Below are positions 9,830-14,657 of a stretch of DNA of 54,298 nt, piece after piece; the first letter of the stretch is position 1; every line of letters starts with the position of its first letter. The DNA comes from Streptomyces bobili. Its GTDB lineage: Bacteria; Actinomycetota; Actinomycetes; Streptomycetales; Streptomycetaceae. The DNA lies in contig NZ_MUBA01000039.1 in assembly GCF_002154575.1 (NCBI RefSeq), positions 1-54,298 on the forward strand, in the 5' to 3' direction. The position numbers and the translations under genes are program-made. The notes under the pieces were generated by a model. That model did no database searches. It worked only from the letters and a program-made list of their open reading frames with translations, and was not told the origin of the DNA.

Positions 9830-10848
9830 TCAGAACTCGTTCTCACGCAAGTGGTGACGGACCATGTTCTGGGAATCGGCGGCGTCCTTGTCCCGCAAGG
9901 GGCGCAGACCGCGGGTGGGCAGGTCGGGGAGCTGGAACGAGTACCGGCCGAGCATGTTGATGTGGTGCCGCACGAACGGTGACAGCTGGGCGACGTCCTC
10001 GTCGCGGACGTCGAACCCGTCCGCCCGCAGCTGCGCCACCGCGGCGTCCATGTAGCGGGTGTTGAAGAGCACGACGGCGTTGAGGACCAGGCCGAGCGCG
10101 CCGATCTGGTCCTCCATGCCTTCCTGGTAGCGCTGGTAGAGCTGCCCTGAGCGGCCGTGGAAGATCTTCCGGGCGAGGGAGTGGCGGCCCTGCTGGAGGT
10201 TGGCCTGCGCCTTGATCTGGCGGCGGTAGCCGGGCTCGTCGGCCAGGCGCAGGATGTGCAGGGACTTGGCGATCCGCCCGTAGTGCGCGATCGCGTCCCC
10301 CAGCGGGGTCGGCCGCCCGTCCCGCGACAGCATCCGGATCACGTCGTACGCACGGAGGGCGCCGGTGTGGACGGAGCCGATGATCCGAAGGATGTCCTCG
10401 CACAGGCCCGGTAGGTGGCCAGCCGCAGCTACGTCTGGTCCACGTGGGACAACCTGCCGTATTTCAGCTCGTCGGTCCCGCCGATGACCGGTGTGTAGCC
10501 GACGTTGCAGCCGTGCGCGACCAGCAGCGCGGCGACCGTCACGTGCAGGTCCTTGAGCCTGGCCTCACCGCCGGTGATCGAGGTGAACGCCTGGTCGGCG
10601 CCGGTCCAGGAGAACACCTCTAGCAGGACCTCCGGCAGGTCGACGCGGGGCATCATCGCCTCCACCGCCTCCACCGCCTTCCGCAGGTCGATCAGGGAGA
10701 CGGGTTCGGGCTCCGGCTGAAGGGCGGCGAAGTGCAGGCGGCCGTCGTCGCCGAACACGATCTGTGAGGTCGCCGGCACCCGCCCGGCGACCTCCCGGTA
10801 CGTGCCGTCCAGCAGCGCGGCCCGCGCCGCCAGGTGCTCCCCGGCCTA
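9830..10848 (-). pseudogene. Tn3-family transposase remnant B with catalytic-core deletion and nonsense codons
   Basis: The C-terminal part is well preserved: DVIRMLSRDGRPTPLG, HYGRIAKSLHIL, QGRHSLARKIFHG, GMEDQIGALGLVLNAVVLFN, RDEDVAQLSP and HHINMLGRYSFQLP, ending at TGA 9830. Upstream, another block (RVDLPEVLLEVFSWTGADQA; GRLSHVDQT) is interrupted by TAG at 10429-10431 where relatives have Tyr in YLR. Right after it the sequence jumps to the region encoding EDILRIIGSVHTGALRAYD, so the entire DDE core is missing. A further in-frame TAG lies at 10846-10848, and homology may reach about 10.9 kb. The copy cannot be active. Confidence 0.85.
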
Positions 10849-10921
10849 GGCGGGCAGGTTCAGGGAGGCCAGCACGGTCGGGCGGACCTTCTCACGCGAG
10901 GGCGCGCGCGTCCGGGCGCCG

Positions 10922-10986: not shown

Positions 10987-11409
10987 GTGAGCAACCAAGC
11001 GCCGAACCACGCCCGCGTGATCCCGCTGCGCCCCTCGGCGGGGCGCCCGGGGACCACCCGCCCCGCCGACCGGCAGCCCACCCCCAGAGAACCTCTCTGG
11101 CGCGACCTGGTGGGCGACGTCCTGCGTCGCGAACGCCAGGCCCAGGAGCGCACGTTGAAGGACGTCGCCGACACCGCCCGCATCTCCATGCCGTATCTGT
11201 CGGAGGTGGAGCGCGGCCGCAAGGAGGCCTCCTCGGAGGTCCTGGCGGCTGCCGCCCGCGCCCTCGGCCTGAGCCTCGGCGACCTGCTGGCGCGCGCCCA
11301 GGGCGAGCTGGTCAGGCTCACCAGCCGGACCTCGCGCACCACGCAGACCTCGCACGCCGGCAGCACGGCGACCACGTCCTCGTACAACGGGCTCTGCCTG
11401 GCCGCCTGA
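10987..11409 (+). CDS. popR: XRE-family regulator PopR (controller of clpP3-clpP4)
   Basis: 140 residues. A helix-turn-helix occupies about 44-100 (LVGDVLRRERQAQERTLKDV, ISMPYLSEVERGRKEASSEV). The protein ends in CLAA. In Streptomyces, PopR activates the clpP3-clpP4 operon and is itself degraded by ClpP1/P2 through two C-terminal alanines, much like an ssrA tag; this protein has that ending and lies tail to tail with a clpP pair. The start is GTG 10987. A GGGAAG directly abuts it, too close for a normal ribosome site, and the -10 hexamer spacing suggests a leaderless message. The related regulator ClgR is the alternative, but gene context favours PopR. Confidence 0.8.
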   Translation: MSNQAPNHARVIPLRPSAGRPGTTRPADRQPTPREPLWRDLVGDVLRRERQAQERTLKDVADTARISMPYLSEVERGRKEASSEVLAAAARALGLSLGDLLARAQGELVRLTSRTSRTTQTSHAGSTATTSSYNGLCLAA

Positions 11410-11430
11410 CGGCACCAACGGGCCGGCGTC

Positions 11431-12033
11431 CTACACCCGCACGGGGCGCCGGCCCAGTACCTCGTCGACCAGGCCGTACGCCACCGCCTCCTGCGCGGTG
11501 AACACCTTGTCGCGGTCCATGTCCGCGCGCAGCGTCGCCACGTCGTGGTGAGTGTGCCGGCTCAGCACCTCCTCGACCTGGGCGCGGATGCGGACCATCT
11601 CCTTGGCCTGGAGCGCCAGGTCCGACACCGTGCCCTGCCGCCCGCCACTCGCCGGCTGCCCGAGCAGCACCCGCGCGTGCTCCAGCGCGAACCGCCGCCC
11701 GGGGTCCCCGCCCGCCAGCAGTACGGCCGCGGTGGACGCCGCCTGGCCGACACAGAACGTCGCGATGGGCGCCTGCACGAACGTCATCGTGTCGTAGATC
11801 GCCATCAGCGAAGTGAACGAGCCGCCGGGGGAGTTGATGTAGATCGCGATCTCGTTCTCCGGCCCCGACGACTCCAGATGCAGGAGTTGCGCGATGACGA
11901 CGTTGGCCACGCCGTCGTCGATCTCGGTACCGAGGAAGATGATCCGTTCGGCCAGCAGCCGGCTGTAGACGTCGTAGGACCGCTCGCCCTGCGGGGTCCG
12001 CTCGACCACGTTCGGAATCGTGTACGTCCCCAT
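11431..12033 (-). CDS. clpP4: ClpP-family subunit (ClpP4-like) lacking the catalytic histidine
   Basis: 200 residues. The nucleophile Ser100 ([11 protein letters not shown]) and the Asp171 region (ADMDRDKVF) are present. The position of the catalytic His, HQP in active ClpP, reads LLGQPASGG, with Gly125 replacing it. Alone it should be proteolytically inactive, working as a structural or modulating partner in a mixed tetradecamer with the intact ClpP encoded just upstream. Start and stop are one base apart: the upstream stop is at 12035-12037 and this ATG begins at 12033, so the two are coupled. The operon is likely controlled by PopR. Confidence 0.88.
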
Positions 12034-12034
12034 G

Positions 12035-12688
12035 TCAGAGTCCCATCCGTCGCTTCGAGGCGGCCGGGCGGACGTCGGCCAGCGACTCCACGACCCGGTC
12101 GACGATGCCGTACTCCCTGGCCTCCTCGGCCGTGAACCAGCGGTCGCGGTCGCCGTCACGGGAGATGGTCTCCGGGCTCTGACCGGTGTGCTCGGCGGTG
12201 ATCCGCTCGATGGTCCGCTTGGTGAACTCCAGGTTCTCCGCCTGGATCTCGATGTCCGCGGTGGTGCCGCCGATCCCCGCCGACGGCTGGTGCATCATGA
12301 CGCGCGCGTTCGGCAGCGCGTACCGCTTGCCCGCCGTACCGACGCTCAGCAGGAACTGCCCCATGCTGGCCGCGAATCCCATCGCCAGCGTCGAGACGTC
12401 GTTGGGGACGAGCCGCATCGTGTCGTAGATGGCCAGGCCCGCGTGGACCGAGCCGCCGGGGCTGTTGATGTACAGGCTGATGTCGGTGCGCGGGTCCTCC
12501 GCCGACAGGATCAGCAACTGCGCGCAGACCCGGTTCGCGGACACCTCGTCGACCTGGGTACCGAGCAACACGATGCGCTGGTTCAGCAGTTGGGCCGCGA
12601 GCTGGTCGTCGAAGCGGCCGGGAGAGGTGTCGCCCTCCTCGGCCCGAGGGAGCAGGGCCGGCGCGGCACCGGCGAGGAATGGGGACAT
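12035..12688 (-). CDS. clpP3: ATP-dependent Clp protease proteolytic subunit (ClpP3-like)
   Basis: 217 residues with a complete triad: Ser108 in [11 protein letters not shown], His133 in VMMHQPSAG and Asp178 in [20 protein letters not shown] is the oxyanion/handle region. The N-terminal 30 residues (a propeptide-like, Ala/Pro-rich extension) should be processed. It forms the peptidase barrel used with ClpX or ClpC ATPases. AAGGAG sits 6 nt before the chosen ATG 12688; the frame is open further upstream but without signals. It is the first gene of the clpP3-clpP4 unit, which in Streptomyces substitutes when ClpP1/P2 is impaired. Confidence 0.92.
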
Positions 12689-12766: not shown

Positions 12767-12787
12767 GGATTTCCCTGCCCTGGGCAG
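12767..12787. promoter_or_regulatory. Candidate PopR operator upstream of clpP3
   Basis: GGATTTCCCTG (12767-12777), shared with the popR upstream region, runs into a perfect 13-bp palindrome CTGCCCTGGGCAG (12775-12787). The pair sits about 80-100 bp upstream of the clpP3 start, in the gap divergent to the PhnB-like gene. Linking it to PopR is inference from position and sharing. Confidence 0.4.
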
Positions 12788-12944
12788 ATTCGCCGACAGC
12801 AGAGGCCGAAGCCGGGGGAGGCCCGCATCGGCAAGACGGCGAAGCCGGTCGAACGAGTACGCCTTCGAGCGATGAGTTTCGGGACGCGGACCGGTCCACA
12901 CCCATGACCGCGCTCCACGTACTCCCGCGCTCCCGGAGGAACTC

Positions 12945-13427
12945 ATGACCACCGACGGATTCACCACGTGTCTCTGGTTCGACGGCCAGGCGGAGGAAGC
13001 CGCCCACCACTACGTGTCCATCTTCAAGAACTCCAGCGTCGGCACCGTCGCCCGCTACACCGAGGCGGGACCGGGCCCCGCCGGCTCAGTGGTCACCGTG
13101 GAGTTCACGGCGAACGGTCAGAGGTTCATCGGCCTCAACGGCGGCCCGCAGTTCACGTTCAACGAGGCCATCTCCTTCCAGATCGACTGCGCCGACCAGG
13201 AAGAGGTCGACCACTACTGGAACAAGCTCGTCGAGGGCGGTGGCGAACACGGTCCCTGCGGCTGGCTCAAGGACAAGTACGGCGTGTCCTGGCAGGTCGT
13301 GCCCACCGAGCTGACCGAGATGGTCACCGACCCGGACCAGGAGAAGGCCGCCCGCGCCATGAAGGCCATGCTCTCCATGAGCAAGCTCGACATCGCCGCC
13401 CTGCGCAAGGCGTACGACGGGGAGTAG
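12945..13427 (+). CDS. PhnB/YjdN-like VOC-fold protein
   Basis: 160 residues. TCLWFDGQAEEAAHHYVSIF, FTANGQRFIGLNGGPQF, GWLKDKYGVSWQVVP and the C-terminal KLDIAALRKAYDGE are the standard blocks of the PhnB-like family (also listed as 3-demethylubiquinone-9 3-methyltransferase domain, a misnomer since members are metal-independent or zinc VOC folds). Function is unknown. CGGAGGAACTC gives a good ribosome site before the ATG. It is divergent from clpP3 and convergent with the next gene; no operon partner is visible. Confidence 0.9.
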   Translation: MTTDGFTTCLWFDGQAEEAAHHYVSIFKNSSVGTVARYTEAGPGPAGSVVTVEFTANGQRFIGLNGGPQFTFNEAISFQIDCADQEEVDHYWNKLVEGGGEHGPCGWLKDKYGVSWQVVPTELTEMVTDPDQEKAARAMKAMLSMSKLDIAALRKAYDGE

Positions 13428-13443: not shown

Positions 13444-14337
13444 TCAGCCTCCGGTCTCCGCCAGGATCTCCCTGATCACATGCCGGGAGTTCTCCGCCAG
13501 CGATGGATTGGTCTCCCAGTAGTACGGCAGCTGGATCAGCGAGATCGACAGCGCCCAGCCCCGGCCGCGCGCCCACTCGGCGTCGTCCGCGCCCACCTTC
13601 TCCCGGAAGGTGGCGCGGGCCGACGCCGGCAGCAGGTTCCAGGCCACGATCAGGTCGACGGCCGGGTCCCCGATCCCCACACAGCCGAAGTCGATCACCG
13701 CGGCGAGCCGGCCGTCCGCGACCAGCACGTTTCCCGGCGACAGGTCGCCGTGGGCCCACGCGGGCGGCTCCGTACGGCCCGGCGCGCGCAGCGCCTCCTC
13801 CCACAGGGCGGTGACCGCGGCGACGTCGATCCGGCCCTCCAGTTGGGCCAGGGCCGAGCGGGTCGGCGCATCCCGTTCCGCCAGCGGCATACCCCGGTAT
13901 CCGGGCGGCCCGCCCCGCGCGTCGACCTCGCGCAGCCCCGCGACGAACGCCCCCAGATCGGCGGCCAGCGCCTCGGGCCGCTCCAGGGCTCCCGCGACGG
14001 GATTACGGCCGTCCAGCCACCCGTAGACGGACCAGGGCCACGGAAACCCGTCGCCGGGGCCGCCCCGCGCCAGCGGCACCGGCGCGGCCACGGACAGCCG
14101 CGGCCCGAGCCGCTCCAGCCAGCGCACCTCGTACGCCACGCTCTCCACCGCCCCCGGATGCCGGGGCAGGCGCACCACCTTGTCGGCGCCCAGCCGGAAC
14201 ATCGCGTTCTCCGTCCCGGAGGACGTCAGCCGCTCCACGGGCAGCGACGCCCATCCCGGGAACTGCGCGGCCACCAGCCGCCGTACCAGCGCGGAGTCCA
14301 CGTCGACCTCGTCGGGGTGCATCTTCAGGGCACACAT
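13444..14337 (-). CDS. Aminoglycoside/macrolide phosphotransferase-family kinase
   Basis: 297 residues from ATG 14337, with GGAG 8-9 nt upstream. The APH fold is complete: an N-lobe with a Lys-containing strand (GADKVVRLPR), the Brenner-type catalytic loop HGDLSPGNVLV and the metal-binding DFG-like VIDFGCVGIGDPAVD. Such kinases phosphorylate hydroxyls of aminoglycosides, macrolides or endogenous small molecules. In streptomycetes many are housekeeping or orphan resistance genes; the sequence does not identify a drug. It is divergent from the mannanase gene across a 450-bp gap. Confidence 0.88.
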   Translation of the reverse strand: MCALKMHPDEVDVDSALVRRLVAAQFPGWASLPVERLTSSGTENAMFRLGADKVVRLPRHPGAVESVAYEVRWLERLGPRLSVAAPVPLARGGPGDGFPWPWSVYGWLDGRNPVAGALERPEALAADLGAFVAGLREVDARGGPPGYRGMPLAERDAPTRSALAQLEGRIDVAAVTALWEEALRAPGRTEPPAWAHGDLSPGNVLVADGRLAAVIDFGCVGIGDPAVDLIVAWNLLPASARATFREKVGADDAEWARGRGWALSISLIQLPYYWETNPSLAENSRHVIREILAETGG

Positions 14338-14657
14338 GCCGCTCACTCCAGGTGATCGGAGCGACGGCTGTCCAACGAATTGCGGGGCCGCGAGCCCGGC
14401 CGCGACCGAGGGCGGCACATGGTGGTCGAACCCCACGTCGACGCTCGCCCTCCGGACGGTCAGGACCTGACGTGGGAAACCGGCTGCGAAAACTTTCGAG
14501 AAGCCGCGGCAAAAGGCCCCGCCGAGAAGCTGCCGCGGAACGCCCGCCCGGAAGCCGCGGTGAAAACGTCGGAAACCGGTACGGAAACTGCTGCGGAAGT
14601 AGTCCGTCGGCCGCCACACCGCTCGGACCGGGCGGCCGACGGCCTCTGCGCGATGCC
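14338..14657. other. Long divergent intergenic region with repeated purine-rich motifs
   Basis: Between the kinase and mannanase genes. From about 14466 to 14600 the plus strand carries repeated GAAAC/CGGAA and AGCCGCGG-type motifs (GGAAACCGG occurs near both ends of the stretch) and a short CGAAAACTTTCG palindrome-like site. Open frames exist but their composition does not look coding. I see no gene; upstream regulatory sites for the mannanase are the likeliest content. Confidence 0.4.

Follow-up and report, generated by a model that had tools for sequence, protein, structure and literature searches.

Recurrent loss of catalytic-triad residues from ClpP4, the partner of ClpP3 in a PopR-associated Clp locus of Streptomyces bobili and other Actinomycetes

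The window analyzed here is a 54,298-nucleotide stretch of Streptomyces bobili DNA (contig NZ_MUBA01000039.1), in which positions 10987–12688 hold three genes, popR on the plus strand lying tail to tail with clpP3 and clpP4 on the minus strand. A preliminary description, made from this DNA alone, had noticed that ClpP4 lacks the catalytic histidine. That observation was correct and understated: the loss is family-wide in Streptomycetaceae, triad losses recur in other families, ClpP3 is spared in nearly all loci, and the pattern is mirrored by erosion of the ATPase-docking pocket of ClpP3. The explanation that we favor, and consider probable, is that the locus encodes a PopR-controlled backup Clp protease in which ClpP4, a ClpP2-derived subunit, has given up catalysis and kept ATPase docking, with cutting performed by ClpP3. 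Published work is cited by open-access article number. The features of the locus are as follows.

10987–11409, plus strand: popR, GTG start, 140 amino acids, a helix-turn-helix activator ending in GLCLAA (an ssrA-like LAA degron), based on the translation and a Pfam HTH_3 match.
11401–11409, plus strand: the final Ala-Ala codons and stop of popR, the end of the LAA degron, read from the sequence.
11431–12033, minus strand: clpP4, 200 amino acids, a ClpP2-type subunit with Ser100, Gly125 and Asp171, based on alignments, the tree and the predicted ClpP fold.
11659–11661, minus strand: Gly125 codon GGG of clpP4 (the vacated histidine position), counted from the ATG at 12033 and supported by alignments.
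12034–12034, minus strand: the one nucleotide that separates the stop codon of clpP3 from the start codon of clpP4, from the sequence.
12035–12688, minus strand: clpP3, 217 amino acids, a ClpP1-type subunit with the complete triad Ser108/His133/Asp178, based on alignment and the tree.
12774–12803, minus strand: a PopR operator-like site upstream of clpP3, two substitutions from the published 30-base consensus and with an exact 20-base core.

ClpP4 belongs to the ClpP family (peptidase family S14; PF00574, 238.2 bits versus a cut-off of 20.2), and it lacks the complete Ser-His-Asp triad that the name peptidase requires. In the columns of the triad, the motif GQAAST holds Ser100 and ARVLLGQPA holds Gly125, followed by Asp171; the alignment to the solved ClpP2 chain 5dzk_A is gapless at this site (ARVLLGQPA over ARVLIHQPS). 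The completeness of the ClpP3 triad, also part of the preliminary description, was confirmed. The predicted ClpP4 model, used for fold and confidence only, shows an ordinary ClpP fold (mean predicted local distance difference test score, pLDDT, 87.8) that matches 6vgq_A, a chain of the Mycobacterium tuberculosis ClpP1P2 complex (Z 30.2, root-mean-square deviation 2.0, 179 residues). Its lowest interior confidence falls on residues 131–140, right after the vacated position (mean pLDDT 59).

In a first set of relatives, glycine occupied the histidine column in 109/109 ClpP4s, with Ser100 and Asp171 invariant, and the histidine was invariant in 108 ClpP3s. Among the full set of 178 Streptomycetaceae ClpP4 loci (155 distinct proteins, in which species may recur), none has histidine at the catalytic column: 175 are Ser-Gly-Asp, two are Ser-Gly-Ala, and one is Ser-Ser-Asp (L145). 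Ser100 is thus retained in 178/178 loci and Asp171 in 176/178; in two Streptomyces ClpP4s (L172 and L173), the catalytic aspartate is changed to alanine on top of the lost histidine. A sequencing error or single-strain oddity is ruled out by the presence of glycine in 177 of the 178 loci. The family coded f1 was called Streptomycetaceae on two grounds: the window belongs to it, and the closest relatives with a name are Streptomyces.

A shifted histidine that completes the triad, which the preliminary description had named as the outcome to look for, was not found. The alignment to solved ClpPs has no gap at the site, and none of the histidine columns combines fixation in Streptomycetaceae ClpP4 with specificity to it; a shifted or compensating histidine was therefore rejected. 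His52, His119 and His160 are common to these proteins, and they also occur in 97 to 100 percent of the 62 ClpP4s from other families that have an intact triad. His163 is present in 98 percent of Streptomycetaceae ClpP4s and in 29 percent of the intact ones, and His162 in only 65 percent of the Streptomycetaceae proteins.

The glycine version is kept at the protein level. All four glycine codons are used at this position in the 179 genes that include the window (GGG: 76, GGC: 76, GGT: 15, GGA: 11, plus one AGC for serine), showing that the residue, not the DNA, is being kept, and all four TCN serine codons are used in Streptomycetaceae ClpP4. The median ratio of nonsynonymous to synonymous substitution (dN/dS; Nei-Gojobori, 150, 150 and 149 random pairs of ClpP4, ClpP3 and ClpP5, respectively) is the same for ClpP4 and ClpP3 (0.162 each), versus 0.304 for ClpP5. 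The retained serine and aspartate may support the handle region and ring contacts. Two other residues, Thr101 and Ala128, are typical of Streptomycetaceae ClpP4; they occur in 3/62 and 5/62 of the intact ClpP4s outside the family and in 28/50 and 39/50 of the other dead ones, possibly as parallel changes that followed the loss of catalysis.

In class-wide searches of the Actinomycetes, the popR-clpP3-clpP4 order recurred in families outside Streptomycetaceae. The ClpP4 triad is not intact in 178/178 Streptomycetaceae loci and in 51/113 loci outside. In the latter, the serine is replaced by Ala in 27 ClpP4s, by Glu in 11 and by Trp in nine, and the other four are one each of Ala-Gln-Asp, Ala-Asp-Asp, Ser-Asp-Asp and Ser-Gly-Asp. 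The remaining 62 outside proteins are intact. ClpP3 retains Ser-His-Asp in 176/177 Streptomycetaceae and 112/113 outside loci (288/290, window excluded). One of the two exceptions is a broken frame in a genome that is 76 percent complete (L143, kept in the ClpP3 count as a non-intact row), and the other is an Asp to Glu change (L329, genome G853). L329 is the sole readable ClpP3 with an altered triad; its neighboring ClpP4 is intact, which inverts the usual arrangement. When the 289 paired loci were scored together, only ClpP4 was broken in 226, both subunits were intact in 61, only ClpP3 was changed in one, and one was unreadable (L143).

These counts exclude copies from the window's own genome (L001–L005, L086 and L232) and two second copies (L185 and L186). 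Outside Streptomycetaceae, one locus was kept per genome and 17 repeated loci were left out; open reading frames (ORFs) whose alignment covered <120 residues were removed, namely pieces of L143, L163 and L031. Ten loci recovered by the class-wide search turned out to hold a ClpP1P2 pair or only ClpP2, and served as ClpP2 and ClpP1 rows. One protein neighboring these loci (L219), which adjoins a ClpP2-type gene, was scored as ClpP3 type. Three ClpP4s with Ser to Ala (L213, L222 and L223) also have the SPGG loop replaced by CEGG. This loop has a role in the oxyanion hole, and the combination suggests a more thoroughly dismantled site. The Ser-Gly-Asp ClpP4 counted outside Streptomycetaceae (L331; genome G974, family f17) is nested within the Streptomycetaceae clade even though its genome is of another family, and it may reflect transfer or contamination.

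The history of loss was traced on a ClpP4 tree of 175 rows, from which the three catalytic columns had been removed and which was rooted on 11 ClpP2 rows (all Ser-His-Asp). Support is given as the Shimodaira-Hasegawa-like approximate likelihood ratio test (SH-aLRT) from a quick search that left many open branches. All ClpP4s grouped together (100), as did the 52 rows of the glycine clade (100) and the 11 rows of the Ser-to-Glu clade (99). The tree requires at least seven changes between intact and lost triads and 12 between exact states. Because ClpP2 and the early-branching ClpP4s are intact, these repeated changes are most simply read as losses.

The ATPase-docking pocket shows the reciprocal pattern. 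In Streptomyces hawaiiensis ClpP2, this pocket was defined by mutants at S94, Y96 and Y116 (PMC9765437). ClpP4 carries aromatic residues at both the Y96 and the Y116 position in 288/289 loci, as do ClpP2 (11/11) and ClpP1 (9/9), versus 2/289 in ClpP3, a count that includes the unreadable L143 row; the third position (S94) is variable in ClpP3 and ClpP4 alike and is uninformative. At the Y116 position, ClpP3 has leucine in 175/177 Streptomycetaceae rows. The aromatic pair is gone from ClpP3 in 60 of the 62 loci with an intact ClpP4, and the docking asymmetry therefore seems to precede triad loss. This distribution of residues points to an order in which ClpP4 seems first to have taken over docking, freeing its triad to go.

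Five ClpP genes are present in this genome: ClpP1, ClpP2 and ClpP3 have complete triads, whereas the catalytic histidine is absent from two, ClpP4 (glycine) and ClpP5 (arginine). In a five-family tree, ClpP1 and ClpP3 split from ClpP2, ClpP4 and ClpP5 with an SH-aLRT of 100, and ClpP5 groups with ClpP2 rather than ClpP4 (92). The own-genome ClpP5 (L005, G000:C72:5453-6097) does not lie beside clpP3, and 14/29 other ClpP5s of the genus lack an intact triad through many different changes. The housekeeping subunits are conserved in the main set (ClpP2 intact in 11/11 rows, ClpP1 in 9/9). They are equally so in a control built from the best 29 non-window ClpP2 loci of 118 genomes searched across the class, which leans toward proteins close to the window's ClpP2 (ClpP2 intact in 29/29, ClpP1 in 26/26); this search also returned two further rows scored as ClpP3 type, both intact. 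In Streptomyces ClpP1P2, the ClpP2 mutant S131A keeps full activity and the ClpP1 mutant S113A has none, and ATPases dock via the ClpP2 pocket only (PMC9765437). Together with the fully supported tree split, these mutants give ClpP3P4 the look of a duplicated ClpP1P2 pair whose pre-existing division of labor, by analogy, has been fixed in sequence.

The degron of PopR is prior knowledge, as is the backup role of the protease. Streptomyces ClpP3P4 is described as a backup core produced solely upon failure of ClpP1P2 (PMC9765437, PMC12607617); ClpX with ClpP1P2 degrades PopR, and ClpP3 is expressed when this degradation fails (PMC9765437). The two C-terminal alanines are given as the recognition signal in a review citing Viala and Mazodier 2002 (PMC9775585). 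The window's PopR, whose best NCBIfam match is ClgR (91.9 bits, under the cut-off of 170), bears the Ala-Ala degron at its C-terminus, as the preliminary description had stated, and the ssrA-like character proposed there had already been published for PopR. Among 282 PopR-like ORFs that adjoin a ClpP3-type gene (window included), 264 end in AA and 244 in LAA, and the transfer-messenger RNA tag of the same genome likewise ends in LAA (ANSKSDSQSFALAA).

Using the 30-base PopR consensus taken from PMC9775585, we predicted an operator about 85 bases upstream of clpP3. A genome search for the 20-base core with ≤3 mismatches returned 55 sites, one with no mismatch and 54 with three; the reversed control pattern returned 103. 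The clpP3 site is thus the only core match in the genome with <3 mismatches, and a wider PopR regulon was dropped as a candidate since no other site stands out from this background. The core lies within two substitutions upstream of clpP3 in 153/177 Streptomycetaceae loci and 8/113 outside (background: 186 sites within loci, both strands, 3.45 million bases), and the operator has probably diverged outside Streptomycetaceae.

Putting these results together, the backup protease would operate as follows. While ClpP1P2 works, ClpX-ClpP1P2 would destroy LAA-tailed PopR, and clpP3-clpP4 would stay off, as published for Streptomyces. On failure of ClpP1P2, PopR would build up and switch on clpP3-clpP4, presumably by binding the operator at 12774–12803. 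ClpP3 and ClpP4 would then assemble, most likely as one ring each, with the ATPase docking on ClpP4 and ClpP3 doing the cutting, as suggested by both triads and pockets together with the ClpP1P2 mutants in the literature. Because the triad of the docking subunit was dispensable, ClpP4 would have lost it in the ancestor of Streptomycetaceae through a His to Gly change, and independently through different changes in other families, with the ClpP3 triad kept.

Several points weigh against this reading. Ser100 (178/178) and Asp171 (176/178) are kept more strictly than a plainly dead site needs, the triad is intact in 62/113 ClpP4 loci outside Streptomycetaceae, and L329 shows the reverse pattern. 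The loss counts rest on the quick tree with its open branches, and the support for ClpP4 as one group is 100 in the 175-row tree and 79 in the five-family tree. Loci were found by similarity thresholds, leaving distant ClpP4s under-sampled; species may occur twice among the 178 loci, and L219, counted among the 290 ClpP3 rows, could instead be a ClpP1. Both the ClpP3P4 complex and the inactivity of ClpP4 are inferred from sequence and from analogy with ClpP1P2. The mixed complex with half of its sites inactive, proposed in the preliminary description, would need the two subunits in equal numbers and is likewise hypothetical. Lastly, a Streptomyces cattleya "ClpP4" is reported to have shortened the half-life of RelB when co-expressed with ClpX in Escherichia coli BL21 (PMC4989188). 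We give this result little weight since the numbering may not match (the ClpP4 and ClpP5 of that species are neighbors) and because of the host background. The BL21 host has its own ClpP.

The S. cattleya result would also fit a ClpP4 that is still a peptidase, with the histidine replaced by another residue or by a histidine of the substrate (substrate-assisted catalysis); serine and aspartate are kept, and the glycine would leave a cavity able in principle to take a substrate histidine. We regard this as very improbable: the widely shared histidines (52, 119 and 160) are nearly universal in intact ClpP4s and are no compensations, His163 is also present in 29 percent of the intact proteins, His162 is found in only 65 percent of the Streptomycetaceae ones, and in other lineages the serine itself is lost. 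That clpP4 is decaying towards a pseudogene is largely refuted and has next to no credibility, even though aspartate is also lost in two Streptomycetaceae loci, ClpP5 of the same genome is decaying, and two ClpP4s are split in frame (L143 and L163). The dN/dS of ClpP4 equals that of ClpP3 and is below that of ClpP5, no ClpP4 among the matches listed has an internal stop, and the docking pocket is retained in 288/289 loci.

Two other arrangements accept that ClpP4 is dead, and each is unlikely. ClpP4 and ClpP3 could share each ring, following the model of cyanobacterial ClpP3/R, and ClpP4 would thereby set the number of active sites per ring. The cyanobacterial core has two identical rings, each with three ClpP3 and four ClpR in alternation (PMC4673316), and the one-base spacing of clpP3 and clpP4 suggests co-production. 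However, ClpP4 lies on the ClpP2 side and ClpP3 on the ClpP1 side of the family, the ClpP1P2 cores of Listeria and M. tuberculosis are described as separate homogeneous rings (PMC4673316), and the split of docking and cutting residues between two proteins is easiest to envisage with pure rings. Alternatively, the missing histidine could be a regulatory device: a ring without it would favor the compressed state, and the backup core would work only with an ATPase bound. The conservation of serine and aspartate despite the lost histidine in Streptomycetaceae is consistent with this idea, as is the low model confidence at residues 131–140, but losses outside that family mostly hit the serine (Ala, Glu or Trp), and the S131A mutant of ClpP2 is fully active in ClpP1P2 (PMC9765437). 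The common thread is therefore lost cutting, not lost hydrogen bonds of the histidine.

Two-component ClpP proteases are widespread, and these results are relevant to why bacteria keep two different ClpP subunits. This lineage of paired ClpPs appears to have repeated the experiment: with one exception among the readable cases, the active site was lost from the ClpP2-derived subunit, and what the ClpP1-derived partner lost was the ATPase pocket. This is a directly testable claim about division of labor. The results also call for caution in annotation, given that ClpP4 is named a proteolytic subunit (NCBIfam subfamily, above cut-off) and probably cuts nothing. The pattern may further bear on how streptomycetes survive ClpP-targeting antibiotics. 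Streptomyces ClpP3P4 is reported to be insensitive to acyldepsipeptides (ADEP; PMC12607617), in keeping with the erosion of the ClpP3 pocket. Streptomyces coelicolor without clpP3 and clpP4 is said to be killed by beta-lactones (PMC9775585); a poison-resistant backup core is therefore conceivable. We offer only as a long shot that natural ClpP-targeting antibiotics shaped this core, with ClpP3 losing the aromatic pocket used by ADEP, ClpP4 losing a reactive triad that beta-lactones could acylate, and PopR switching on the spare when ClpP1P2 is poisoned. If true, the repeated loss of one catalytic subunit would represent convergent evolution of drug-insensitive spare parts.

With respect to genomic setting, the one-base spacing of clpP3 and clpP4 suggests translational coupling, and the two subunits are probably co-translated. 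Gaps of 1, 2 or -1, measured to the aligned start, account for 172 of the 177 Streptomycetaceae pairs covered by the eight most frequent gap values. Each of the 295 genomes of the genus gave a ClpP match (E 1e-50 or better), whereas ClpP4-like matches (E 1e-85 or better) occur in roughly half of them among the matches listed, the remaining genomes showing only the weaker match at the level of ClpP2; going by these matches, not every streptomycete carries clpP4. Upstream of popR, a Tn3-family transposase (PF01526) is present in two separate pieces (9833–10342 and 10432–10779, both minus strand), and the DNA at 9876–10893 aligns in two pieces, at about 92 percent identity, with a Tn3 element from a Streptomyces plasmid. 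This similarity stops about 90 bases before popR, and likeness to the DNA preceding popR in the nearest relative (L006) begins at 10918, so that the near promoter of popR seems to have been spared. On the other side, a PF06983 gene (12945–13424, plus strand) is divergent from clpP3; the intergenic region between the two contains the PopR operator, which is about 140 bases upstream of the PF06983 gene; an APH-family phosphotransferase (PF01636) follows at 13447–14619 (minus strand).

Compared with known systems, the window locus is a member of the PopR-ClpP3-ClpP4 backup protease of Streptomyces lividans and S. hawaiiensis, with the same gene content, the popR gene adjoining a clpP3-clpP4 operon of ClpP1- and ClpP2-type genes, the PopR operator upstream of clpP3 and the LAA tail. 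The pairing of a triad-deficient ClpP relative with a complete one is a kind known from ClpR. The open-access literature searched, as far as its text was available, contained no discussion of the missing ClpP4 histidine, the repeated one-sided loss or the reciprocal pocket erosion of ClpP3 in PopR-controlled pairs. In one survey, 21 of 121 prokaryotic Clp homologues were putatively inactive (PMC2605481), and a Streptomyces ClpP4 may be among them.

The likeness to ClpR-type subunits drawn in the preliminary description fits as a statement about function and not as one about membership. Like cyanobacterial and plastid ClpR, ClpP4 is a ClpP-like protein with an incomplete triad that pairs, in our case presumably, with an active ClpP (PMC4673316). 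In contrast, ClpR is described there as lacking the catalytic triad, whereas ClpP4 misses one of three residues and keeps serine and aspartate; it also groups with actinobacterial ClpP2 as opposed to ClpP1 and ClpP3, with ClpR compared by description only. Whether one missing residue of three qualifies as lacking the triad is a matter of definition. Restoration of the active site in ClpR is reported to give no gain in speed (PMC4673316). Listeria monocytogenes ClpP1 likewise has an odd triad (Asn for Asp172) in one of two paired ClpPs, but its triad is active once joined to ClpP2 (PMC9765437), and the glycine of ClpP4 would offer no side chain to replace histidine. Streptomyces ClpP5 resembles ClpP4 in being on the ClpP2 side of the family with an often broken triad (arginine at the histidine position in the own-genome copy), and it differs in lying away from clpP3, evolving faster and grouping with ClpP2. 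The closest parallel in architecture is Streptomyces ClpP1P2, which also combines ClpP1-type and ClpP2-type subunits, the ClpP2 type docking and the ClpP1 type cutting (PMC9765437). It differs in that the ClpP2 triad is kept (11/11 and 29/29) even though it is dispensable in assays, whereas that of ClpP4 is lost, and in that ClpP1 keeps both pocket aromatics (9/9), which ClpP3 does in 2/289 rows.

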